13,458 nucleotides of DNA. It comes from Chrysochromulina parva. Lineage: Eukaryota; Haptophyta; Prymnesiales; Chrysochromulinaceae. Below the pieces are notes generated by a model that was given only the letters and a program-made list of their open reading frames with translations, ran no database searches and had not been told where the DNA came from. Positions 221-13,458 of this stretch are shown one piece after another (the stretch's first letter is position 1; each line of letters begins with the position of its first letter). The translations under genes were made by a program, and so were the position numbers. The stretch spans positions 1 through 13,458 of the forward strand of contig PJAB01001586.1 of the NCBI GenBank assembly GCA_002887195.1, in the 5' to 3' direction.

Positions 221-1105
221 TCATGCCATCGCCATACCTCGTGATCGCTTCGACGCTGCTTGTCGGCGTTGCGCGCGCGTGCCACCCTGGCTGCCACCCT
301 GGCTGCCACCCTGGCTGGCGCCGCCGCCGCCGCCGCCGTCGCCGCCGCCGCCGCTGCCCTTTCTGCTGCTGCTCGGTGCCAGCGCCGCCGCTTTGGACGG
401 CCGCGGCCGCTTCGCCGCACCGCTCGCTGCACCGGTCGATGCGCGCTCGACATGGCGCTCAACCATCCATTGGACGAACTCCTCCGAGTCCGCCTCGCTC
501 GGGTCGTCCTCGGCGCCGCTCTCGAACTCGATGCGGTCGTCGCCCTCGGGCAGCAGCACCTCGATGTTCTCCTCCGCGTCGTCCTGGGCGTCCTCGGCCT
601 CGCGCGCTGTTGGTTTCTTGCCACCCGCGGTCCGCGATGGCGCGATGTCGGCGGCGGTCGGCCACCCGTCCTCGTCCGACTCGCCGTCGCCAGTGCCCAC
701 GCCGATGCTCACGGGCGCGCCGCTGCGCCGACGCTGCTCGCGCACCGCCGCCCAGGCGGCCTTGTTGGCAGCAGCGACGCCGGTGCGCTCCTTGCTGTCC
801 ACGATGAGTCGGCCGAGCACGTGGAAGGCGCGAGGCCCAGTCGCCTTGAGGAAGAGCCATGCCATCTGGTCGGGGTCGTTGGTCACCACCGTGCTGAGCG
901 TCGCCTGCATGCGGCCGCCCGGTGGCAGGGAGCACAGCACAAAGTTGTGTGTCGCAAGGTCCAATGCGAGCGTACACCTTGCGTCAGGCGGAGCGCCCGG
1001 CGCGAGCGCGCAGTGCTTGATCTCGAGTGCGGAGCAGCCGGGCATCGCGATTTTGCACCCTTTGTCGCCCGGCGTGACCTTGCACGCGATGAGCGAGGTG
1101 CGCAT
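221..1105 (-). CDS. Nucleoplasmin/HD2-like acidic nuclear protein (probable histone chaperone)
   Basis: The 294-residue product has the three-part build of nucleoplasmin-like proteins (plant HD2 proteins, the N-terminus of FKBP39-type proteins). Residues 1-102 form a beta-rich core with the family-like strand NFVLCSLPPG at 54-63 and a final strand around FHVLGRLIVD. An acidic stretch (about 138-210, rich in D/E) follows, then a basic Gly-rich tail with a likely nuclear-localisation patch (AKRPRPSK, 231-238). Such proteins bind histones or act in chromatin and the nucleolus; that role is inferred from the fold. The reading frame is open upstream to 1228 without domain sequence, so I chose the ATG at 1105, where the core begins. 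The tail holds a poly-Gly run and three GGSQ/GGAS repeats encoded by short tandem repeats. It diverges from the kinase/PARP gene at 1754. The assignment rests on pattern recognition of a weakly conserved fold. Confidence 0.6.
   Translation of the reverse strand: MRTSLIACKVTPGDKGCKIAMPGCSALEIKHCALAPGAPPDARCTLALDLATHNFVLCSLPPGGRMQATLSTVVTNDPDQMAWLFLKATGPRAFHVLGRLIVDSKERTGVAAANKAAWAAVREQRRRSGAPVSIGVGTGDGESDEDGWPTAADIAPSRTAGGKKPTAREAEDAQDDAEENIEVLLPEGDDRIEFESGAEDDPSEADSEEFVQWMVERHVERASTGAASGAAKRPRPSKAAALAPSSSRKGSGGGGDGGGGGGASQGGSQGGSQGGTRAQRRQAASKRSRGMAMA
281..316. repeat. 12-bp tandem repeat, 3 copies, in the 3' end of the nucleoplasmin-like gene
   Basis: The unit GCCACCCTGGCT is repeated three times exactly (281-292, 293-304, 305-316). 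It is followed by a CCG/TCG run to about 358. On the minus strand these encode the GGSQ repeats and a poly-Gly tract. Because the unit is a multiple of 3, copy-number change would keep the frame. Confidence 0.9.
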
Positions 1106-1400
1106 TCGGCCTCCTTTCTGAGTCGTCGGCGAGCGACCCGCGACCACGTCGTCAGTCCAAGTGCTGTGAACGGAATGCTGTGAACATTCCAAATTTCTCA
1201 AGTCAAGTCTACACATAAAAACAGACAACCATACGGAAGCCTACATGTAGACTACTATTGGGTGCTATTGTACAATATCCGGAAGCCAGCTGTGGTGGAA
1301 GGGAGTGGGCGGAGATGACGGACAGGGGATCCATCTAGAGGTGACACGTCATAAGTGCTGATACGTGCCCTCGGAGTGGAAGGAGTACCAGCCGGGTGGT

Positions 1401-1753: not shown

Positions 1754-2430
1754 ATGTTGACCACATTTCCAGGAGACATGCTGTTCCTCCTCGGCACACT
1801 GGGACAACTCAGCACAACCCTGCTCGTGCAGGCCGCCCCCGCCGCTGCCGCCGACCCCGACGCCGAAAGTGCCGCCGGCGCCGCGGCGCTCGGCGTGAGC
1901 GCACGTGGCCGCCGGGAACTCTTTGGTGTACCTCCACCGTCCCCACCGCGGATGCCCATCAACCCCTGTGATTGTATCGACCAGTCAATGGGATGCACCT
2001 CTGCCAGCGGAGTCGATGTGAGATATTTTCGAACAACGTTTGGGGAAGATAATATGTGTGGCTGCGATATCGTATCGATCTGGAGTGGCTTTACTTGCTT
2101 CGTATATGGAGGCCACGATGGTTGCCCTTCGAATTCAAAACCGACTTCGAAAGGTTTAGCGTATAGGAGCTGCAACCAGCAAAACCCCAACGGACTGGAA
2201 GCCCCCAACTGGTTCAATGGCCCCACGACGCCAAAGACGCAACTCGCGGTCGCGTGGGTCGTCATGCTCTTCTTCTTGCTACTTTTTGGATTGGCAACTG
2301 TATTGGATACATTGGATCCGAGAATGAGGGGGACCAATTGGGGGCTTATTGACGGAGTGATGACGTGTTGCCTGTTCGGGCTGCCCTTCCTGATCTGCCT
2401 CACTGTGTGGATTGTGCTGATGAATCAGCA

Positions 2431-2464
<34 letters not shown>

Positions 2465-5400
2465 ACATTGCCGCCGCCGCCGCCGTCGCCGCCACCGCCA
2501 CCATCGCCGCCGCCGCCGCCACCATCGCCACCATCGCCACCATCGCCACCCTCGCTTCCGCCGGCCCCGCCGTCGCTTCCACCGGAACTCGAGACGAGCA
2601 GCGCAACTGGGCTGATCGTTGGCGCTGTAATCGTCCCGATTGCCCTTGCCACCCTCGTCTTCATGCTCTTTCGTCGCTATTGCAAAGATAAGCTGAATTC
2701 TAGGTGGGTGGCGGCCCAGGCGGCGTGGGTGGCGGCCCAGGCGGCGGCGGTGGCCAAAAGGGAGGCGGCCAGGAAGGCTGCTGACTCCGCCGCGGCCGCC
2801 TCCTCCTCTGCAAAAGATGCTCGAAAAGATGCCTCTGCAGCCGCTGCCTCTGCGGCCGATGCCTCTGCGGCCGCTGCCTCCTCTGCTGCCGCTGCAAAAG
2901 CAGCCGCTGCCTCTGCGGCCGCCTCCAAATCTGCGGCCGAAGCCTCTGCGGCCGCCTCCTCCTCTGCTGCCGCTGCAAATGCGGCCGCTGCGGCCGCTAC
3001 TTTTGCGGCCGCCTCCAAATCTGCGGCCGAAGCCTCTGCGTTCGCCTCCTCCTCTGCTGCCGCTGCAAAAGCAGCCGCTACCTCTGCGGCCGATGCCTCC
3101 TCTGCGGCCGCAGAGGCAGCGGCCGAGAAAGCCAAGGCCGAGAAGGCGGCGGCCGACGCGAGGGCGGTGGCCGAGAAGGCGGCGGCCGAGAAAGCCAAGG
3201 CCGAGGTGAGGCACTGGGAGATGAAATTGGACAAGATGGAAAAGGCTCGCGCGAAGCTCTGCAAGGCGCAGGACCGCGTGCGCCTCTTGGCCGCAGTGGC
3301 GGCCAACGAGGACGAGTCACTGCGCGACGCCACGAAGATGCGAGACGAGGCCCGCGTCGCCTTGGTCCGTGTGCTTGATGATGCGCTGAAAGTACACAAC
3401 AAGGGCGAGGAGCAGTGGCGGAGCCTGAACGATGAGGCGGCCGCGTTGCAGCAGAAGCAGCAGGGGGAGTGCGGGCTCACGCTTGCCGAGGAGCTGCGGC
3501 TCGAGTGTCTGCACAGTCAGGTGCTGCCCGTGCTCGACGAGTGGGTGGCGCAGATAGGCAGAGTGCACGAGGAGCGCGAGGACTTGCGCCGCCACGTGAG
3601 CGGCGAGCCGCCAAGCCTGGGTGATCTGCGCGAGAAGCACGAAGCGTTCAAGAAAGCAAAGAGTGCTCTCAAGAAGGCGACGCGCGACCTCGAGGACGCC
3701 AAAGATGACGGCGTCGGCCTCGCGCCCACGGAGGCTGCGCTCAAGGCCGCCCGCAGCACTGTGCAGGCTGCGGAGCGCGCGCTACACCAAGCGCGCGTCG
3801 AGGCGGCGACACTCGCGTCGGCGCACTTCCCGGAGCTCTTCGCGAAGGAGCCGCTGCTCAAGCTGGGTGCGGCGGAGGGGGTCGATTCGGACGAGCTGCG
3901 CGCGGTGCTCGTTGAGCGAGAGCTCTCGCACTACGGCAGCCTGGAACCGATCAGCGAGGGGCGGCACGAGGTCTTCAAGACGAGCTACGACGGCAAAGAT
4001 TGCGTGCTCAAGAAGTACAAGATGTCCGAGTGGAAGCTGCTCGCCAAGGAGGTGAGGCTGCTCGGTCAGCTCTCCCACTGCCCGTTCATGGCCCCCGTCG
4101 AGGCCGTCTTTGTGGTGCAGTCCGAGCCGTACGCCGCGTACGTCCAGCTGCGCTATTTTTCGGGCGGTAACATGCTCCAGTGGCTGAACAGGACAGCCCC
4201 TCAGCCAGCGCCCAAGGTTCCCGAACAGAAGGGGGGACGGAAATTTGGCATTTGGAGCGATTGGAGCGATTGGAGCGATTGGAGCGATAGTAGGAAGCCC
4301 GAGATTTGGCAGCGCAAGGCGCTGCTTGGGCAGCTGTGCGAGGCGCTCCGCCACCTGCACAGCCACGGCCTCGCGCACGGCGACGTCAAGCTCGAGAATG
4401 TCCTCGTGGCGCTCGAGGGCGAGCGCGCGAAGGCGCACCTGGCCGACTTCGAGTCCGCGCGCCGCCAACACTCGATGGACACGCGCAGCAGCCTGAGGTC
4501 GAGCACGGGCGGTGGCATCGCCTTCACCGAGCTCTACGTGGCGCCCGAGATCCTCAAGGCGAGCAGAGAGGGCCGCGAGCGAGACGCCAAGCCCACCGCG
4601 ATGGGCGACATGTTCTCCTACGGCGTCTGCTGCCTCTTCGCGTGCTGCTTGCCGCCGACTGCCAAGGAGCAGCAGGACGCCATCCGCCGCTTCGACGTCG
4701 AGGACGACCGCATGCTCAGCGCATGGTCGCGCGAAGCGGCGAAGCAGGCGGACGCGCACTTGCCCGACCTACTCGAGAGCCTTCTTGCCGACGCGGCGAC
4801 CAGCGAGGAGGCCCTCGCACGGCGACTGAGCGCGAGCCAGACGCTTCGGCACGCATTCCTCGACACGGCCGCGGCGCACGAGATGAGCACCAAGGCTCAG
4901 CAGGCGGCCGCCAAGGCGTCACAAGAGGCGGCGCAGCAGATGGCTGCCGTCGAGCAGGAGGCGGCGCGTCGGGATCGTGAGGCTGCCTGGCGTGAGGCCG
5001 AGCAGCGCCGCAAGCAGGCGGAGCAGGAGGAGGCGCTCGAGGCTAATATTAAGCAGTTCGAGCTCGAAGCGGCGGCGAAGCGCAATGAGAACCAGCGTGA
5101 GCAGCGCCGCCTCGAACAAGAGCGGCAAAAAGTGCGCGAGCAGGAAGCGGAGGCGGAGGCGAAGGCGCGGGCGGCGGCGCAGCTCATGAGTGACGCCAAG
5201 GCAGTGCGCGCGGATGCAGACCGCGAGGCCGCGCAGCAGCGCGCACAGGCGCAGGCCAAGCGCAAGGAGCTCGAAGCTGAGGAGAAGCGAGTGGCGCTCA
5301 AGTGTAATCAGAGAAAGGCCGAGGCGGAGAGCGCAGAGGCCAAGGCCACCAAGGCGCGCGACGACCTTCGCATCGAGCGCACCAAGGCCCGCGACATGCC

Positions 5401-6289
5401 CGACTACTGGGAGAAGCGAATTGCGACCAGTTCGCTGGATGGCCTCGCCGCGATTGCCCTCGACCGCACTGGCCGCGATCGTAGCACGTGGGCCGCACTC
5501 GAAAGGCTGATGCAGACCGACCCAGTGACGCTGAAACAGGACGGTGCCGATCGGAGCGGCACCACTCACGACCGGCTGAAGCTCGCGTGCGCGTGGCGCC
5601 TCGAGAACCCGGCGCTTTGGGAAAAGTACATGGTCGGCGTGCAGGAGGTGACGAACGGCATGAAGCGCATCCGGCAGGGGGGCGTGGCAACCGCGGGCGG
5701 CGCGCCGCCCCTTACGCGCGGCGCAGCGGACGCCCTACCCGGTCAATCGCGCGCGGACGTCAATGAGGCCTTCCTGATGCACGGCACGAACGCCGGCGTG
5801 CTCATCAACATCCTTTCCACGGGCTTGAACGAGCGCTTCGCCGGCACGGGCGCCGGAGCCGCGTACGGCGAGGGCTCCTACTTGGCCGAGGACGCGGGCA
5901 AGAATGACCAGTACACCGAGGTGGATCTGCAGTACGATGGGAGCTCGGAGCTGCACAAGCGGCTGTACGCGCACGGTGCGCGCCACCCGGGCAAGGTCTT
6001 CTACATCCTCGTGTGCCGTGTGGCGCTCGGCCATCACGTGCGTACAAAGGAGACGGGTAGGAAGGCCACGAGCACCGATACGGGTCGACCCGTGTTCCCC
6101 AAAACGTTCCGCGAGCTCGACACGGTGGCCGGCGTCTCTCCGCCCGTGCATCACCACTCGCTGCTTGCCGACGTCATGGACGTTGGCGCGCGCTACCGCG
6201 AGTTCATCGTCTTCCACTCGGAGTACATCTACCCCGAGTACCTGGTGGCTTACCAGCGGTACGAGGGCGACCGCGGCCCAATGGCGTGA
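1754..6289 (+). CDS. Three-pass membrane receptor-like protein: Cys-rich ectodomain, kinase domain and PARP domain
   Basis: This is a single open frame of 1511 residues. Domains in order: signal peptide (about 1-28); ectodomain with eight cysteines (72, 74, 81, 102, 104, 115, 124, 140); TM1 (about 164-184); TM2 (about 199-223); proline-rich loop (227-278); TM3 (about 287-307) followed by RRYCKDK; Ala-rich repeats and coiled coil (about 315-700); kinase domain (about 730-1038); second coiled coil (about 1040-1210); and PARP domain (about 1275-1505). The kinase has Lys753 in VLKKY, HGDVKLEN (Asp877, Lys879, Asn882), DFE in place of DFG (Asp898) and APE at 930-932; the glycine loop is degenerate. 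The PARP part has ENPALWEKY, His1343 (HGT), Tyr1376 and Glu1483 (YREFIVF), which is the H-Y-E triad of active enzymes, and ends YPEYLVAYQ as in tankyrases. N-out/C-in topology puts both enzymes in the cytosol. A start at the ATG at 1778 would also keep the signal peptide. Activities are inferred. Confidence 0.85.
2431..2588 (+). repeat. Proline-rich low-complexity coding tract (PPSPP)
   Basis: CCG/CCA and TCG codons encode residues 227-278 of the kinase/PARP receptor as PPSPP and PPPPPSPP units. In the predicted topology this tract is the only loop exposed outside between TM2 and TM3. That fits extensin-like, possibly hydroxylated and glycosylated stretches of algal surface proteins. Confidence 0.85.
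2860..3110 (+). repeat. 90-bp imperfect tandem repeat encoding an Ala/Ser-rich helix
   Basis: Two clear copies have a period of 90 bases: the anchor GCGGCCGCCTCCAAAT occurs at 2915 and 3005, with the following 70 or so bases closely matching. A decayed partial copy lies upstream. They encode 30-residue Ala/Ser units containing AAASKSAAEAS. A further direct repeat, with a 21-residue period, lies just downstream (3121 and 3184). All sit between TM3 and the kinase domain and keep the frame. Confidence 0.75.
4252..4287 (+). repeat. 9-bp tandem repeat, 4 copies, inside the kinase domain
   Basis: TTGGAGCGA is repeated four times exactly and encodes (WSD)n within the kinase, between the strand region YVQLRYFSGGN and the helix leading to HGD. 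This is the hinge/alpha-D to alpha-E part, where kinases tolerate insertions. It appears young because the units are identical. Confidence 0.9.
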
Positions 6290-6604
6290 GTGTGGATGCG
6301 CTAGAGTGTCCTGTCCGCGCGGTGGGGCAAATTAGAAGAAAGGATTACTTAGACCTGTAAAAAGTGTATCCGTTCGTCCGTCGCTCTCTCGAGTGGGTTT
6401 GCGTGCGTCACAAGCATCGTGTGACATGGATTTAACACCGTTTATCCCCTGCGTTTATCTGATCACCAAATCTACTTCGACGCCGTATCTGAGCTCGTGA
6501 TCTTGCTTCTCGCCGGGCCGCGATTTCATGTCAACAAGATACAAGCGTGTCGTGTCGGCGACCATGATATCGACGAACGACGAATGCGTCCCTCCGTCCC
6601 CTCA
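6290..6604. other. Intergenic region between convergent genes
   Basis: These 315 bases separate the stop of the kinase/PARP gene from the stop of the esterase gene, so they should carry both 3' untranslated ends. No AATAAA is visible. A TGTAA (6356-6360), the motif used as a poly(A) signal in green algae, lies 67 bases after the first stop, which is weak evidence. No open frame or RNA gene is apparent. Confidence 0.5.
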
Positions 6605-7555
6605 TCATAAGTGTGAATGAGATCGCCTCTCCGAACGCATCCCGAGCAGGTGGCGCCGTCCCGAGCAGGTGGCGCCGTCCCGAGCAGGTGGCGCCGTCCC
6701 GAGCAGGTGGCGCAGCGGCCGCTCGGCGCGCCGCCCCCAGTCCCGTTCACTGTGGCGGCCGCCGGGCTCGCGGTGCCATGCGAGCTCAACTGTCTCATTG
6801 TGCCCCCGCAGCGCCGACAGCATGCCGTCGACGCCCGCATTGAGCGAGGTGTCCAGCCACCAGAAGCCTCCCTCGTTCAGACCTTCGAGGAGGTCGACAC
6901 GGCGGTCGGGAGTGTCGCCGCCGTTGTCGATGTAGATGCGCGGCTTTCGGGACGCGCGCGCGAACCGATCGCCTCCGCGTAGCGCCACTTCTGCGATGAG
7001 AGGCGCATTGAAGGCGGGCGACAGGCAGGCCGCGTGACCAAAGACGTCGGGTCGCCGATAGACGGAGAGGAACGCGGCGGTGCCCCCCATCGAGGCACCC
7101 AGGGCGTGCGTGTGCTCCGCCGAGGGCAACGTGCGGAAAGCGCGGTCGATCGCGGGCTTGAGCTCGCTGCACAAGTACGACAAGTAGCGCTGCCCGAAGA
7201 TGGGCACGTCGAGGTTGTACTCCAGCCATCGGCGGCGCACCAGAGGGAGCATCTCCGGTCCGAGGTCGCCAGGCATCAACGGGCCAACGTGGTCTATCAT
7301 CACCACGATGGGCTCCTCTATGGTACCCTCGTCGATCAGCTCGGACAGTGTCACGTGCAAGCGCCACGACTTCCATGCTTCCGCCATCAAGTGTTGGCCG
7401 TCGTGGCAGTAGAGCGTCGGGTAGCGACGGTCGGGAGAGGATTCGTACGACCTGGGCGTCCACACGCGAATGGATCGTTCAGGTAGGCGCCAGTCGTACG
7501 AGGAGGAAGGCAGCGCAAAGGGCTGCACGTGGCCGGCTCCGGCAGGAATCCGCAT
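6605..7555 (-). CDS. Esterase-D-type alpha/beta hydrolase (putative esterase)
   Basis: The product from the ATG at 7555 is 316 residues. The sequence follows the putative-esterase family (enterochelin esterase / esterase D type): a strand with RSIRVWTPRSYE, the YPTLYCHDGQ motif, the nucleophile elbow GASMGG with Ser155, a likely Asp in YIDNGGD (Asp214), and the catalytic His in GGRHSERDW (His268). The complete triad suggests an active hydrolase of small esters or thioesters; the substrate cannot be told. The open frame extends upstream to 7660 but without an ATG, and family-like sequence begins near MRIPAGAGHVQPF, so 7555 is the best start. The last 30 or so residues come from a 19-bp tandem repeat and are not family sequence. 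The gene diverges from the surface-protein gene at 7747 with under 200 bases between starts. Confidence 0.8.
   Translation of the reverse strand: MRIPAGAGHVQPFALPSSSYDWRLPERSIRVWTPRSYESSPDRRYPTLYCHDGQHLMAEAWKSWRLHVTLSELIDEGTIEEPIVVMIDHVGPLMPGDLGPEMLPLVRRRWLEYNLDVPIFGQRYLSYLCSELKPAIDRAFRTLPSAEHTHALGASMGGTAAFLSVYRRPDVFGHAACLSPAFNAPLIAEVALRGGDRFARASRKPRIYIDNGGDTPDRRVDLLEGLNEGGFWWLDTSLNAGVDGMLSALRGHNETVELAWHREPGGRHSERDWGRRAERPLRHLLGTAPPARDGATCSGRRHLLGMRSERRSHSHL
6641..6713. repeat. 19-bp minisatellite, about 3.8 copies, at the 3' end of the esterase gene
   Basis: The unit CCCGAGCAGGTGGCGCCGT occurs at 6641, 6660 and 6679, with a partial, diverging fourth copy at 6698. As 19 is not a multiple of 3, the esterase frame reads successive copies in different phases (HLLGT, then PPARDG, then ATCSG, then HLLG again). 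The repeat therefore forms the extra C-terminal tail. Confidence 0.9.
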
Positions 7556-7746
7556 GCTGTAGAGGGCTCGTTGATGGCCGCCGCCCCGGGGCGTGGCGAG
7601 CGATCCGCGGACATCGGCCGCAGTTTGTAACTCCAAAAGCGAGCACAATCGCAGTGACAATCCAATTTCCAGGATTCTGCCTCATGGAGTTCGGACGTGC
7701 CGCCCGCTTCGCAGTTTCGTTCGAAAACGCCGTCGTGAGCAGCACG
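7556..7746. promoter_or_regulatory. Short divergent promoter region between the esterase and surface-protein genes
   Basis: These 191 bases lie between the chosen ATGs of two divergent genes and must serve both promoters. A CCAAT box is visible at 7662-7666 on the plus strand. An alternative in-frame ATG for the right gene lies at 7684. No TATA box is clear. Confidence 0.4.
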
Positions 7747-10496
7747 ATGGCTGCTTTCGTCCCGGGCCTGGCGGCCGCACTCGTGGCCGCCTTGCCGCCG
7801 TCGTGCTCCATCACGGAAGGCTACCGCCATCGCTGGGAGGCAACCGAGCCGCCGTGGGTGCTCTACGCTGACCAGAACTGCCCGTCGGACCGTGGCGTCG
7901 TCGAGGACTCGGCAATCTGGTCGGGCCTCGCTGTGCAGCAGGTCTCGAATGCCAGCAGCGGCGCGGCCGCAGGGTTTACACGCTACGGCCGCACGACGCA
8001 CACGGCGCGTAAGTTCCGGGGCCGACTCGGCACGCCGTTAGGCCTGATGGTCGCGGGCGGCGAGCTGCTGTGGGTCGAGGAGCTCGACAACTCTCTCCAA
8101 CCTCCGCAGGGCACGCTCAAGCGCTGCCCGGTGGACTATCAGACGTCAAGGTGCGTCGCGGAGCCGACGGTGATCATCGGGCGCATCAATTGCCCGCAGG
8201 ACTTTGCGCTCGATTACACGCGCGGCCACGCGTACGTGATCCAGTACGGCGGCGGCAACTCGAGCACCGCCTCGCTCTCGTGCGGCGGCGAGCCGCGCAT
8301 CACGCGGTTCGACCTGGCGGCCGCGGCCGACGGGAGCTCGCGGCCGACGGACGTGGTCACGCCCGCCACCACCGGCCTCTTCACACCGCGCTACCTGGCG
8401 CTCGACCCGATCGCCGGCTACCTATTCTGGACAGATGCGATGCGATCGGGCGGCGCGCTCATGAGATCGAATCTCGACGGGAGCTCGCCGCTGCAGCTCA
8501 TGCTGCTCCTCCACGTGTCCGGAGTCGCCGTCGACACGAGCCGCAAGGCCCTCTACGTGACCCACGCCGTGCAGGGCGCCTCGATCCTCTACTCGTCATA
8601 CGACGGCCGTTACCAGAAGCATGTTTCGTCACAGCGCTTCTTCGAGCCACGTGGCCTCGCGGTGGATCCCTCCGGTACGATGGCCCTCTGATGGCCCTCT
8701 GATGGCCCTCTGATGGGCCTCTTCTGAGCCTCGGATGGCCCTCTGATGGCCCTCTGAGTGCCCTCTGATGGCCCTCTGATGGGCCTCTGATGGGCCTCTG
8801 ATGGCCCTCTGAGTGCCCTCTGATGGATCTCTGATGGCCCTCTGATGGGCCTCTGATGGCCCTCGGATGGCCACTGACGAGCCGCGGGGCCTCGCGGTGC
8901 GCACCCTCAGATGGCGCCGTGGCGGTGGTCGAGTTCGACACGTTCGACACGGCGCGCGGGGACTGTGACCCGACCGCCAACGCCGGCGCCGGCGCACTCG
9001 CATGCACGCGGCGCAATCTCGGCCGTATCTCGCGGGTCGGATGCAGCTGGCGAGCGGATACCACCACTACCGGCCGTGCGCCCGGCCTTGCCGAGTGCTG
9101 CTGTGCGACGGTTACATCGGTCCGCATGGGCTGCGCTCTCATTTGCTTACCGCCCGGCGTGCGGCCGCCCTCGGCACCACCGGTGCCGCCGCGCACGCCG
9201 CCAGGCGTCTTCAACGCCAACTACACCGCGGCGTTCGCGCCCATCCTACCCGTTCGGGATTACAGCCTGATGAGCGTCGACAACGAGACGATGCTCTTCG
9301 TGGGCGGCTATGTCCAAATCGGGACACAGGCGGTCTCGTGGGGCGACCCGACCCATCTGGCCCTCGTCACGGCCACCCGCCTCCCGCCCTTGGGCTACGT
9401 GCCCTCGGGCACCAGCAGCGGCACCGGCAACGGCAGCGCACCGAGCCGGTACGCCGCACCGCCGCCGCCGATGGCCCCCGGTCCACTCCTATATGGCAAC
9501 TGCACGCCCGGATGCGGCCGTGCGACGGGAATCGACGAGTGCGCGCCCTGTACTCTCGGCACGTATGGGACCGGGGACGGCATCTGCCGCCAGTGTCCGA
9601 TCGGAAAGAGTGGCGCCACGCCGCGTGCGAGCACAGCGGCGGTGGCATGTGCCACGTGCGCCCCGGGGTCGTACAGCCCGGTGCACGGCGCAACGGCCTG
9701 CCGGCCCTGCCCACCGGGCGCCTTCTGTGCCGATGGCTGGTCGCTCGATCCGATCACACGCCTTCTGCGCCAGGTCGCGATGACTGGCGCCATCCCACTC
9801 CCCGTCGAATGCCCGGCTGGCACGTACAGCCCCGACCATGGCAACGACGGCCCCGAGGACTGCATCGCGTGCCCTGCAGGCACAGTCGCGCCACAGTCGG
9901 GTGGTCGCTCGTACGCGGCAGCGTGCGTGCCGTGTCCCGCGGGCATGTCGAATGGCAACCCGGGCATGGCGCGCTGCCATAATTGCACGCCTACGCAGGC
10001 GCAGCCACGCACGGGCCAGCCATTCTGCGACATCTGTGCGCCGGGCACGTTTAGTAACGGCTTCGGACGCACCGCTTGCACCGAGTGCCCCGTGGGCTCC
10101 TTCAACCGCTTTTCGGGCGGCGGGCACCCCAATTGCACTGCATGCCCCCCGGGCACCTATGGCAACACGCGCGGCAGGAGCTCCTGCATCCCGTGCCCGA
10201 ACGGCACCGCGAGTGCCCGGCGCGGCGCGACCAGCGTGGGCACGTGCGCTCCCTGTACACGTGGCACGTACAACAGCGCCTTCGGAGCCTCCGCCTGCAT
10301 GCAATGCCCCACGAGTGCCATGCCCGGCTATCGAGCCGCCGTCAAGGCCCTCGACGACGCCGCGGCCGCCGTGTGCGAGGCGAGCGGTCTCTTCGCCTCG
10401 GAGGCCCCGCCGCGGACCAGGAGCGTCGCCTGGCGTCTGGCCTCCGCACTGGGGCTAGTGATCACGACCCTCTGCCTTTGCCAGGTCGGGGCCTGA
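7747..10496 (+). CDS. Secreted/surface protein with LDL-receptor-B-like propeller and GCC2/GCC3-type Cys-rich repeats (two exons)
   Basis: I read this as join(7747..8674, 8911..10496), giving 837 residues. The start at 7747 gives a clean signal peptide (MAAFVPGLAAALVAALPPSC); the in-frame ATG at 7684 is an alternative. Exon 1 carries propeller blades of the YWTD (LY) type: LALDPIAGYLFWTD (Trp228) with the following RSNLDG, plus blades at INCPQDFALDY and VSGVAVDTSRKALYVTH. The intron falls within a further blade, and joining restores GLAVDPSDGAVAVVEFD, a normal blade strand. Exon 2 continues into a Cys-containing stretch. About eight or nine repeats of the CxxC-PxGTYS-GxxxCxxC type (about 507-775) follow, as in ephrin-receptor-like/GCC2_GCC3 domains. 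The C-terminus is hydrophobic (WRLASALGLVITTLCLCQVGA), either a GPI signal or a final membrane segment. It is probably a cell-surface adhesion or receptor protein, with no enzyme domain seen. Function unknown. Confidence 0.75.
8675..8910 (+). other. Predicted GT-AG intron filled by a minisatellite
   Basis: The donor is CCG|GTACGA at 8674/8675 and the acceptor CCCTCAG|ATGG at 8910/8911. Exon 1 ends with one base of a codon and exon 2 supplies the other two, so splicing is in phase and gives Ser-Asp-Gly inside a propeller strand. Without splicing the frame hits TGA at 8689-8691. The 236-base length is ordinary for an algal intron. No transcript evidence is available here. Confidence 0.75.
8679..8873. 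repeat. 11-bp minisatellite, 17 full copies plus a partial one
   Basis: The consensus unit is GATGGCCCTCT. Seventeen contiguous 11-base units run from 8679 to 8865, with variants such as GATGGGCCTCT, GAGTGCCCTCT, GATGGATCTCT and TCTGAGCCTCG. They are followed by GATGGCCA. On the plus strand any three consensus units contain TGA in every frame, so the array cannot be coding in the direction of the host gene. Confidence 0.95.
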
Positions 10497-11376: not shown

Positions 11377-11919
11377 CTAGAAGTGCACCACGTACTTGGG
11401 GAGGAGCTGAGCGCCCGTCTTGAAGACGACCCAATCATCTCTCGGGTACCAGCTGTCTCCACCTCCTGTCGTCCACCCTTTCCAGGGAGCGCCAAGCACA
11501 GTATCACTGACCTGCTGTCTTTGCCGTAGAACTTGGGCGACTTAGGGCCCGTAGCAGCGTAAATGCCGTGCCCGTATCTTGCGCCGTTGGCTATCAGCGG
11601 ACCTCCCGGTTGCCCCCCCCACCTTGAACCCTCCGGTGCAGATGCTCTGGACGGTAGCAGCACTTGACGTGCCATGAAAGACCCAAATCTCCTCCTTCAA
11701 GTCGCGCGCGGAGAACTGAGCCTTGAGCCGCTCGTATGCGTCCTGAACTGGCTTGCTCTCGTACACGTCGATCTGCTTCACTTGATTCTCCTGGTCAACC
11801 TTGCCAAGGAGCGGCGGAGGCGGAGACAACGGTGGCAGCGGTTGAGGCAGGGGCGTGGTAACGGTGGCACAGAGGTGGCGGCCTTGCGATGCGCTCGCGA
11901 CCTGTGCTATGCTGTCAGA
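11377..11919 (-). pseudogene. Second PARP domain, broken by two single-base frameshifts
   Basis: Three reading frames in succession encode one PARP-type domain. 11919-11621 gives a Pro-rich lead, VKQIDVYESKPVQDAYERL and IWVFHGTSS with the catalytic His (11676-11674). After a run of eight C (11613-11620), another frame gives the Tyr-containing ANGARYGHGIYAATGP (Tyr at 11561-11559) and SVILCLALPGKG. From about 11460 a third frame gives YPRDDWVVFKTGAQLLPKYV and stops at 11377. The position of the catalytic Glu is Asp (DDWVVF). The first break is one extra base in the homopolymer; the second looks like one missing base near 11458-11467. It may be a decaying domain, sequencing error, or the C-terminal end of the kinase/PARP gene immediately upstream on the same strand. 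Confidence 0.75.
11613..11620. other. C8 homopolymer at a frameshift
   Basis: Eight consecutive C (G on the coding strand) lie exactly where the PARP reading frame changes. A run of seven would join GFKVGG directly to the in-family continuation, whereas a run of nine would meet stops at once. This makes a homopolymer-length change (biological or technical) the simplest cause. Confidence 0.85.
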
Positions 11920-13458
11920 TCATCCCAGCGAATCATCTTGCCCCTCTGAAGCTTTGGCTGCTTGTGCCTTCCTTCTGCGTCGCATATTTTCCTCAATTGC
12001 CCCTTCAACGGCTGAGCGTAAGGATCTCGAGCAGGAGGCGATTCGTACTCAATGAGGTAGGCGGGGAACGCTCGGTGATTCTCGTAAACGACTGCCTCGA
12101 TGTTTTCATGCGAGGTGTTTGAATGGCATCCTGGCGTCGGGAGCTTCGATTCTGGTTTTGTGAGGTTTACGACACCGGAAGGCACAGGAGCTCGGACGCC
12201 CATCTTGCCGAGCGTAACACGCGCCAACAGGATGGACTTCGTCACACCCATGCCTCGGTCGCGCGTCTGACGCTCAAAGTACATAGAGAGGCGCGGATCT
12301 GCCGCAAAGTAAATGCCCACACCGTACGCATTGAATTCCTGGGACGCATATTGCGTCATGAAGCCGCTTTCGATGTTCTCTTGGATGGAGTCGTTCCCGT
12401 TGAAGAGCCACACCTCATTCGGGTCACCACCGTTTTTAGCCTTGATCATCTCTCGCTCAGCCTTGTAAATATTATACTGGGCTTCGTTGTCATTGCGCAC
12501 CACCCTTTTCACGACGAGGTTGGGAGTCTTGGCGAAACTCTTGAAGGCATTGCCAACGACAGCCGTTTCTTCGGCGTCGCACACGATTTGTTGTGCCAGC
12601 CGAGGCGGCGCCTTGAGCATTGCCCTCACCTTCTCAACCTCCGCCTGCACCTTGGTCACCTCCGCCATCCTGTTGTCAATCTCCACCTTCTTAGCTGCTA
12701 GATCTTTCTGCGCAGCAAGTACTTTTCGGAGTTCCTCTTTCTGTCCCGCCATCTTCTTAGCCAGCGCCTCCTCCTGCTCCTCCAGCTGACGCCGCCGCTG
12801 CTGCGCCTCCGATTCCGCCTCGCGCTCCCTGCGCGCCGCCTCCGCCATTTGCTGCGCCGCAGCTCTCGTGGCAGCCGTCGCCGCCGCGCTCGCAGCCGTG
12901 CTCGCCGCCTGCGCCGCCTCGGTGTCATGGAATGGATGCAACAGAGTCTGCTTCGCGCTGAGGCGCACGGAGATCGCCTCCGCATTCGTCGCCGCATCGG
13001 CAAGAAGGCTCTCGAGTAAGTGCGGCAAGTGCGCGTCCGCCTGCTTCGCCACTTTGTGCGACCAATCGCTGAGCTTGCGGCCGTCCTCGACTTTAAAGCG
13101 GCGGATTGCTTTATCCTGCTCCTCTTTCTTCGGTGGCAGGCAGCACGCGAAGAGGCAGCAGACGCCGTAGGAGAACATGTCGCCCATCGCGGTGGGCTTC
13201 GCGTCTCGCTCGCGGCCCTCGTTGCTCGCCTTGAGGATCTCGGGCGCCACGTAGAGCTCGGTGAAGGCGATGCCACCGCCCGTGCTCGCCCTCAGGCTGC
13301 TGCGCGTGCCCATCGTTTGTTGGCGGCGCGCGGACTCGAAGTCGGCCAGGTGCGCCGTCGCGCGCTCGCCCTCGAGAGACACGAGGACATTCTCAAGCTT
13401 GACGTCGCCGTGCGCGAGGCCGTGGCTGTGCAGGTGGCGGAGCGCCTCGCACAGCTGC
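11907..13458 (-). CDS. Partial kinase/PARP-like protein, inverted relative of the 1754-6289 gene (5' end beyond the window)
   Basis: The open frame enters from the right edge, so the N-terminal membrane part, if any, lies outside. It begins within the kinase domain (LCEALRHLHSHGLAHGDVKL), with HGD at 13412-13404, DFE, APE and the same GDMFSYGVCCLFACCLPP stretch as the left copy. A charged coiled coil (about 12560-12950) follows, then a PARP-like domain (about 12040-12520). Here the catalytic His is Asn: VWLFNGND, AAC codon at 12401-12399. The Tyr (GIYF, 12311-12309) and Glu (IEAVVY, 12098-12096) are kept. A short basic tail leads to TAG at 11907. Loss of the His that binds NAD suggests reduced or absent transferase activity. 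The broken PARP domain at 11377-11919 follows in another frame and could belong to the same gene through an intron or a frameshift. Confidence 0.8.
   Translation of the reverse strand, partial: QLCEALRHLHSHGLAHGDVKLENVLVSLEGERATAHLADFESARRQQTMGTRSSLRASTGGGIAFTELYVAPEILKASNEGRERDAKPTAMGDMFSYGVCCLFACCLPPKKEEQDKAIRRFKVEDGRKLSDWSHKVAKQADAHLPHLLESLLADAATNAEAISVRLSAKQTLLHPFHDTEAAQAASTAASAAATAATRAAAQQMAEAARREREAESEAQQRRRQLEEQEEALAKKMAGQKEELRKVLAAQKDLAAKKVEIDNRMAEVTKVQAEVEKVRAMLKAPPRLAQQIVCDAEETAVVGNAFKSFAKTPNLVVKRVVRNDNEAQYNIYKAEREMIKAKNGGDPNEVWLFNGNDSIQENIESGFMTQYASQEFNAYGVGIYFAADPRLSMYFERQTRDRGMGVTKSILLARVTLGKMGVRAPVPSGVVNLTKPESKLPTPGCHSNTSHENIEAVVYENHRAFPAYLIEYESPPARDPYAQPLKGQLRKICDAEGRHKQPKLQRGKMIRWDDLTA

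Follow-up and report, generated by a model that had tools for sequence, protein, structure and literature searches.

Analysis of contig PJAB01001586.1 of the haptophyte alga Chrysochromulina parva (assembly GCA_002887195.1; 13,458 nucleotides, analysed whole and called the window below; contig C1586 of a 45 Mb genome in 2199 contigs) showed a forward-strand gene at positions 1754–6289 that encodes a protein kinase domain and a PARP domain in a single open frame of 1511 amino acids plus stop. We consider it probable that this gene represents a hitherto undescribed family of signalling enzymes from algae, with a core of a helical domain, a protein kinase, a long coiled coil and a PARP domain in one polypeptide, and, as part of the same explanation, that the PARP tail has evolved as a module of its own, has become attached to other proteins as well and is exchangeable. 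A reading of the letters alone (the original prediction) had described the product as a membrane receptor that joins both catalytic domains; the joining of kinase and PARP in one protein was strongly supported by the conserved domain order and catalytic residues, and the receptor part is weighed further below.

The original prediction had placed the intact frame and its Lys753, HGD877, DFE898 and His1343/Tyr1376/Glu1483 correctly. The stop-free stretch around the frame was 1529 codons long, whereas in 200 first-order Markov windows the longest such stretch had a median length of 311 codons and never exceeded 506. From approximately position 3250 onward, codon-position GC content was typical of coding DNA, with 0.80–0.93 at third positions (GC3). 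The core started with a conserved, helical-looking domain N-terminal to the kinase (PRE; residues 520–720, positions 3311–3913), followed by the kinase domain (residues 725–1036, positions 3926–4861; K753, E766, HGD877, N882, DFE898, APE932), a predicted coiled-coil linker (positions 4886–5395; recognised by eye in the alignment and helical in a low-confidence model) and the C-terminal PARP tail, designated PARP-A (residues 1215–1511, positions 5396–6289). Misassembly or a chance frame was rejected as an explanation, because other proteins, among them one of the named alga Tetraparma gracilis, have the same domain order.

The kinase-like domain was confirmed by a match to PF00069 at residues 754–1036 (E 7e-18; 65.4 bits vs. 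the Pfam cut-off of 31.7), with K753, D877 and D898 in place. Across 32 aligned kinase rows, His875, Asp877, Asn882, Asp898 and Phe899 were present in all 32, and position 900 was Glu in 31 and Asp in one. Lys753 was found in 28 rows (three did not cover the position and P0015 had Arg) and Glu766 in 29 (Gln in two, one not covering). The best PDB relatives of the family profile were a MAP kinase kinase-like protein (9gmp), ULK1 and ULK2, with which it has PF00069 in common; it differs from ULK/MAPK-activated and receptor kinases in its HGD and DFE motifs, the missing glycine loop, the fused PARP domain and three membrane segments rather than one. NCBIfam gave no match above cut-off for the main protein. 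PADLOC matches to mad6, PD-T4-6 and MkoA lay on or overlapped the kinase and were dismissed as general kinase similarity. Within the kinase, a perfect in-frame 9-bp repeat of 4.1 copies (positions 4252–4288), coding for WSD, was found in none of the other nine of the ten rows of alignment A1 and is perhaps length-variable.

The significant PARP profile match on which the original prediction depended was obtained with PF00644 at residues 1333–1501 (E 4.5e-14; 52.9 bits vs. the Pfam cut-off of 26.7), and the complete H1343-Y1376-E1483 (HYE) triad was present. The full triad occurred in 37 of 40 PARP-A rows, the main protein included; this count took PARP-A rows alone, with the other two tail types, PARP-B and PARP-C, outside it. 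Exceptions were P0015 and P0016, which had no Tyr, and P0016 and P0032, which had no residue at the Glu column, the latter because it ends early. PARPs that make poly-ADP-ribose have the HYE triad, which is nevertheless no proof of polymer formation. An AlphaFold model of PARP-A (predicted local distance difference test, pLDDT, 84.9; predicted template modelling score, pTM, 0.88) had a predicted ADP-ribosyltransferase fold: in a Foldseek search, tankyrases accounted for all 50 matches listed, the best 50 of 408 in the PDB, at approximately 18–22% identity to PARP-A. Against tankyrase 4tor the E value was 8.7e-14, with template modelling (TM) scores of 0.76 (target length) and 0.58 (query length) and a root mean square deviation of 6.7. 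The PARP-A profile likewise ranked tankyrase first (best E 2.5e-16), followed by PARP15, 12, 14 and 10.

Tankyrases (PARP5a/5b, clade 4) share with the main protein the HYE triad and the C-terminal position of the PARP domain; the main protein differs in having a kinase and a coiled coil and no ankyrin or SAM match. As given in the available passages of a survey of the superfamily, clades 1–6 have PF00644 with HYE in common with it (Citarelli et al., 2010; PMC2964712), and clade 4 is defined by ankyrin repeats and a SAM domain preceding PARP (PMC2964712), for neither of which the main protein had a Pfam match. We class the main protein as a PARP protein variant, not as a tankyrase, since the ankyrin–SAM definition does not apply to it, and not yet as a receptor kinase. 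Readers and erasers of ADP-ribosylation were also present in the genome, with six macrodomain places and PARG matches on one contig.

The fusion was not confined to the window. In the database protein searches the 8000 best candidates were scored, so that counts are lower bounds. With residues 720–1511 as query, at least 28 database proteins were matched, 18 of which covered at least 99% of the query (P0002–P0015 and P0017–P0019, 100%; P0026, 99%), including P0015 with its damaged PARP. Thirty-three rows aligned with the PARP-A profile over more than 200 positions, and a kinase was also found in 21 of these: 17 database proteins and four frames from the genome itself (the window, C1032, C678 and C1693). 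This set of 33 excludes rows with 200 or fewer profile positions (P0015, P0016, P0028 and frames cut short) and those fetched later (P0031 on). PRE, kinase, coiled coil and PARP were colinear in one frame in the main protein and its relatives. Among 31 frames of the genome scanned with Pfam, taken from 34 PF00644 places, seven held both PF00069 and PF00644. A search with P0026, the most distant member, gave at least 56 proteins: 39 were kinases without PARP, P0031 was another, and the rest were the query and 15 further proteins with precomputed PF00644.

P0031 is an ochrophyte protein, TeGR_g11050 of T. gracilis, which aligned with the main protein from PRE to PARP, in the same domain order, in one alignment of 909 columns (28% identity, E 9e-79). 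Its PARP domain scored 22.8 bits, below the Pfam cut-off, with HYE present; it also extends approximately 245 residues further at the C-terminus, where there was a weak nucleotidyltransferase-like match (E 0.15). With the 17 database proteins, the four frames of the genome and T. gracilis, the fusion described in the original prediction was found in relatives. P0031 is annotated in its sources as hypothetical or kinase-domain-containing, and proteins of this kind have probably been overlooked because this member falls under the Pfam PARP cut-off and is named for its kinase alone. Ratios of nonsynonymous to synonymous substitution rates (dN/dS) between the main gene and its paralog on C1032 were 0.28 for PARP and 0.42 for the kinase, which suggests purifying selection. 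P0015 and P0016 carry an NAD:arginine ADP-ribosyltransferase domain (PF01129; E 9e-11 in P0015) before the kinase. A swap of PARP for this other transferase was rejected, since the latter is N-terminal and a damaged PARP-A remains at the C-terminus of both. A viral or prokaryotic origin of the family was likewise rejected, on pattern searches that are weak evidence of absence: six patterns for the PARP region had no match in viral_contigs, and two patterns from alignment A1 matched 66 stretches in viral_contigs and 32 in genome_contigs, with no relative confirmed in either.

That the tail has moved as a unit is suggested by a DNA block which the main gene has in common with C1631 (87% identity), C165 (79%) and C911 (71%). 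Its left edge lay at 5395–5399 in all three and its right edge at 6260–6298. Upstream of the block, C1631 encodes an S51 peptidase with membrane segments, C165 a long protein with no Pfam partner above cut-off, and C911 (L013) a 3-hydroxyacyl-CoA dehydrogenase. PARP-A also followed a kinesin motor (PF00225, 9e-98) on C307 (L058, 207–3620, minus strand; a single open frame, 1138 codons) and a TIR match just under the Pfam cut-off on C297 (L021). On C1954 (L017), in a protein that also has a CW zinc finger and DUF5710, it lay mid-protein rather than terminally. In a tree of the 33 tails, kinase and non-kinase proteins were mixed, with six label changes, at least three of them forced by well-supported branches; long branches leave some placements unsure. 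By its nearest relatives in the genome the main gene is a mosaic: the synonymous distance (dS) of its tail to C1631 was 0.16, and that of its kinase to a second gene in the window, which has another type of tail, was 0.20. A GTGAGT splice donor over the stop codon, tried as a sign of alternative tails, was found at 2 of 15 gene ends (the main gene and C1631), with C911 having GTGAGT approximately 60 bases past its stop, and was dropped because it is not general. Two further frames were recorded, with a Deltex C-terminal domain and a PARP under cut-off on C128 (L047), and with an IBR half-RING and PARP on C1850 (L041).

The second kinase–PARP gene of the window, cut by the contig end, lies on the minus strand at 11907–13457 (kinase 12921–13457, PARP-C 11910–12617) and was not mentioned in the original prediction, nor was the broken PARP remnant that adjoins it. 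Its DNA was 83% identical to positions 4330–5046 of the main gene, from which it differs in the type of its tail; identity between the two proteins dropped from 95% at residues 841–900 to 60% at residues 1021–1080. Downstream of the gene, a displaced PARP-B remnant occupies 11380–11814 (minus strand) in more than one frame, beginning approximately 90 bases past the stop. A similar situation was found on C1631 (L011), where an orphan PARP-B at 2454–2936, with an open frame of 168 codons, shows similarity from nine bases past the stop. These were the two near-complete PARP-B places in the genome, and both lie shortly downstream of a gene whose own tail is of another PARP type; in addition, there was a weak partial match on C188 and a distant similarity on C544 (33%, E 5e-6). 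PARP-B is in frame, after the kinase and a further region, in P0023 and P0025. The further region of P0025 is 78% identical to the part of C1631 that matches Peptidase_S51 (PF03575, 3.3e-9). On C1631, the S51 part is separated by PARP-A from the PARP-B which follows that part in relatives. The simplest reading is that the tail was replaced and the old one left downstream, two cases being few; the position of PARP-B could also have arisen by tandem duplication, or PARP-B could serve as an alternative last exon.

A number of observations weigh against the proposed core and its mobile tail. The kinase motifs were not canonical, with HGD and DFE where HRD and DFG are usual, and no glycine-rich loop (GxGxxG) was recognised by eye in alignment A1. 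A joint model from kinase to PARP (791 residues) was discarded as too poor (pLDDT 49.9), and no contact between the two domains is therefore supported. Twelve of the 33 PARP-A rows had no kinase match in frame, so the tail need not be paired with a kinase. Nor do the 17 database rows count as 17 independent genes: P0012 and P0014 have PARP-A tails approximately equal to that of C1032, and P0005 and P0007 share an N-terminus (similarly, the tail of P0021 equals that of C165); several rows come from metagenome assemblies, in which mosaics can be artefacts. High dN/dS values were obtained for the tail vs. C1631 (0.68), PRE vs. C1032 (0.60) and the kinase vs. C1693 (0.90), and many pairs were near saturation. 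The left edge of tail similarity was uneven at the protein level (residue 1126 for C911, 1128 for P0022, 1192 for C1631, 1212 for C165 and 1274 for P0027); part of the coiled coil may therefore travel along, or may be alike in composition. By eye, the minus-strand PARP-C has FNG at the HG motif and seems to miss the catalytic His, so not every family member looks active. PARP-B, likewise by eye, keeps His and Tyr and has Asp near the Glu position; judging from these substitutions, PARP-B and PARP-C tails may differ in activity. The missing glycine loop, the HGD and DFE motifs and the Arg of P0015 at K753 would also fit a pseudokinase that merely regulates or tethers the PARP. We regard this as quite improbable given the invariant Asp877, Asn882 and Asp898, Lys753 in 28 of 29 covering rows and a Glu766 replaced only by Gln, in two rows.

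The claim of a membrane receptor was only weakly supported. Three strong hydrophobic segments (residues 166–184, 205–223 and 287–305; Kyte–Doolittle 2.52–2.78 over 19 residues), which had been read as membrane segments, were present at 2249–2305, 2366–2422 and 2612–2668, as was the Cys-containing region read as an ectodomain, with eight Cys at residues 72–140 and a putative signal peptide that is plausible by eye. This first region (residues 1–163, positions 1754–2242) is the least certain part of the gene and had no Pfam match. A Pro-rich repeat stretch (2423–2605) precedes the third segment, and a basic stretch and an Ala-rich linker of tandem repeats (2704–3205; 90-bp unit at 2903–3079) follow it. 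Less favourable to a receptor were the codon-position GC of 1754–3250, which had no clear peak (GC3 0.60–0.73), and the relatives. Of the 17 kinase-bearing database proteins with a near-complete PARP-A, five (P0002, P0004, P0006, P0012 and P0019) begin inside PRE, so that their N-termini are not visible; among the other 12, a strong N-terminal hydrophobic segment was found in P0005 and P0007 alone, which are near copies, identical over their first 140 residues except residue 1. The N-terminus varies across the family; other relatives start with ankyrin repeats (P0011) or long Ala/Lys-rich stretches, and residues 1–330 as query matched, among the 8000 candidates scored, one protein over 6% of the query.

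A true receptor, with the ectodomain outside, a cytosolic kinase–PARP core and both activities switched on by an external ligand, is a possible but doubtful reading. The basic stretch after the third segment would fit it, and the odd number of segments would place the core on the opposite side of the membrane from the ectodomain. It is also favoured by a short block of 18 residues resembling segment 2 in P0005 and P0007 (E 0.029), and by a block at the end of contig C799 that resembles segments 1–2 and the Pro-rich stretch in one frame (65% identity over residues 152–261, partly Pro-rich). Mismatches between the window and C799 showed no third-position excess (21, 23 and 20 by codon position; dN/dS 0.89 over 74 codons), which speaks against it, and gaps in multiples of three between the two were rejected as coding evidence because the alignment had been made on proteins and the argument is circular. 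Rather unlikely, in our judgement, is a shorter protein, with transcription or translation beginning in the Ala-rich linker and the membrane segments open but untranslated or separate. The change in codon-position GC at approximately 3250 and the absence of a membrane segment from most relatives are in its favour; the frame is nevertheless open across 1.5 kb, the membrane segments of P0005 and P0007 are in frame with the same core, and Pro- and Ala-rich stretches alone blur the codon signal. A membrane anchor is possibly one variable option for the N-terminus of the kinase–PARP family.

Phosphorylation and ADP-ribosylation regulate each other in known systems through separate proteins. In the proposed family, the coiled coil would pair two copies, the paired kinase would phosphorylate itself or its partner, and this would switch the C-terminal PARP, which would then ADP-ribosylate the complex or nearby proteins. 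The N-terminus (membrane segments, ankyrin repeats or another ADP-ribosyltransferase) would select the site and trigger of the core. Coupling of both modifications in cis is a reasonable inference. With both writers in one conserved protein, their cross-talk would become testable in one purified molecule, and the exchangeable tail would offer naturally occurring fusions from which to learn how different partners control a PARP. More tentatively, and with considerable reserve, marine algae may hold a modular ADP-ribosylation system in which PARP tails A, B and C are swapped among kinases, motors, metabolic enzymes and membrane proteins, replaced tails persist downstream as orphan cassettes, and kinase–PARP proteins form the principal signalling branch, in which ADP-ribosylation is under the control of phosphorylation in cis. 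Bacterial polymorphic toxins with exchangeable tips offer a comparison for such cassettes.

A role of the family in immunity against viruses or bacteria, the fast-changing tails and partners being integrated sensor or decoy domains, seems unlikely. Tail exchange and displaced tails, the sub-threshold TIR match beside a PARP-A tail, the Deltex domain beside another PARP and the non-RD kinase motif would agree with it, non-RD kinases being linked with immune receptors. Yet the PADLOC matches within the kinase look like general kinase similarity, and the few patterns run against viral contigs confirmed no relative. No description of a kinase–PARP fusion was found in the part of the open-licence literature searched, and the retrieved passages of PMC7955679, PMC3617106, PMC10328945 and PMC10587436 do not describe one; in the text obtained of the 2010 PARP survey (PMC2964712) the word "kinase" occurs twice, both times in the reference list. 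Each domain is known; within these sources, the conserved combination is undescribed.

The remainder of the window contained a Nucleoplasmin-like domain protein at 221–1228 (minus strand; PF17800, 2e-6), a putative esterase at 6605–7660 (minus strand; PF00756, 1.1e-20) and a Cys-rich protein with six Ephrin_rec_like stretches at 8856–10496 (plus strand; PF07699, 1.3e-30), which is possibly the same gene as an LDL-receptor-like frame at 7348–8691. An 11-bp minisatellite of 17.6 copies was located at 8679–8872, and similar DNA was found in L043, L045 and L046 on other contigs. The genome is marked as algal by 58 light-harvesting protein places, one of which has algal antenna proteins, including fucoxanthin chlorophyll a/c proteins, as some of its top PDB relatives.

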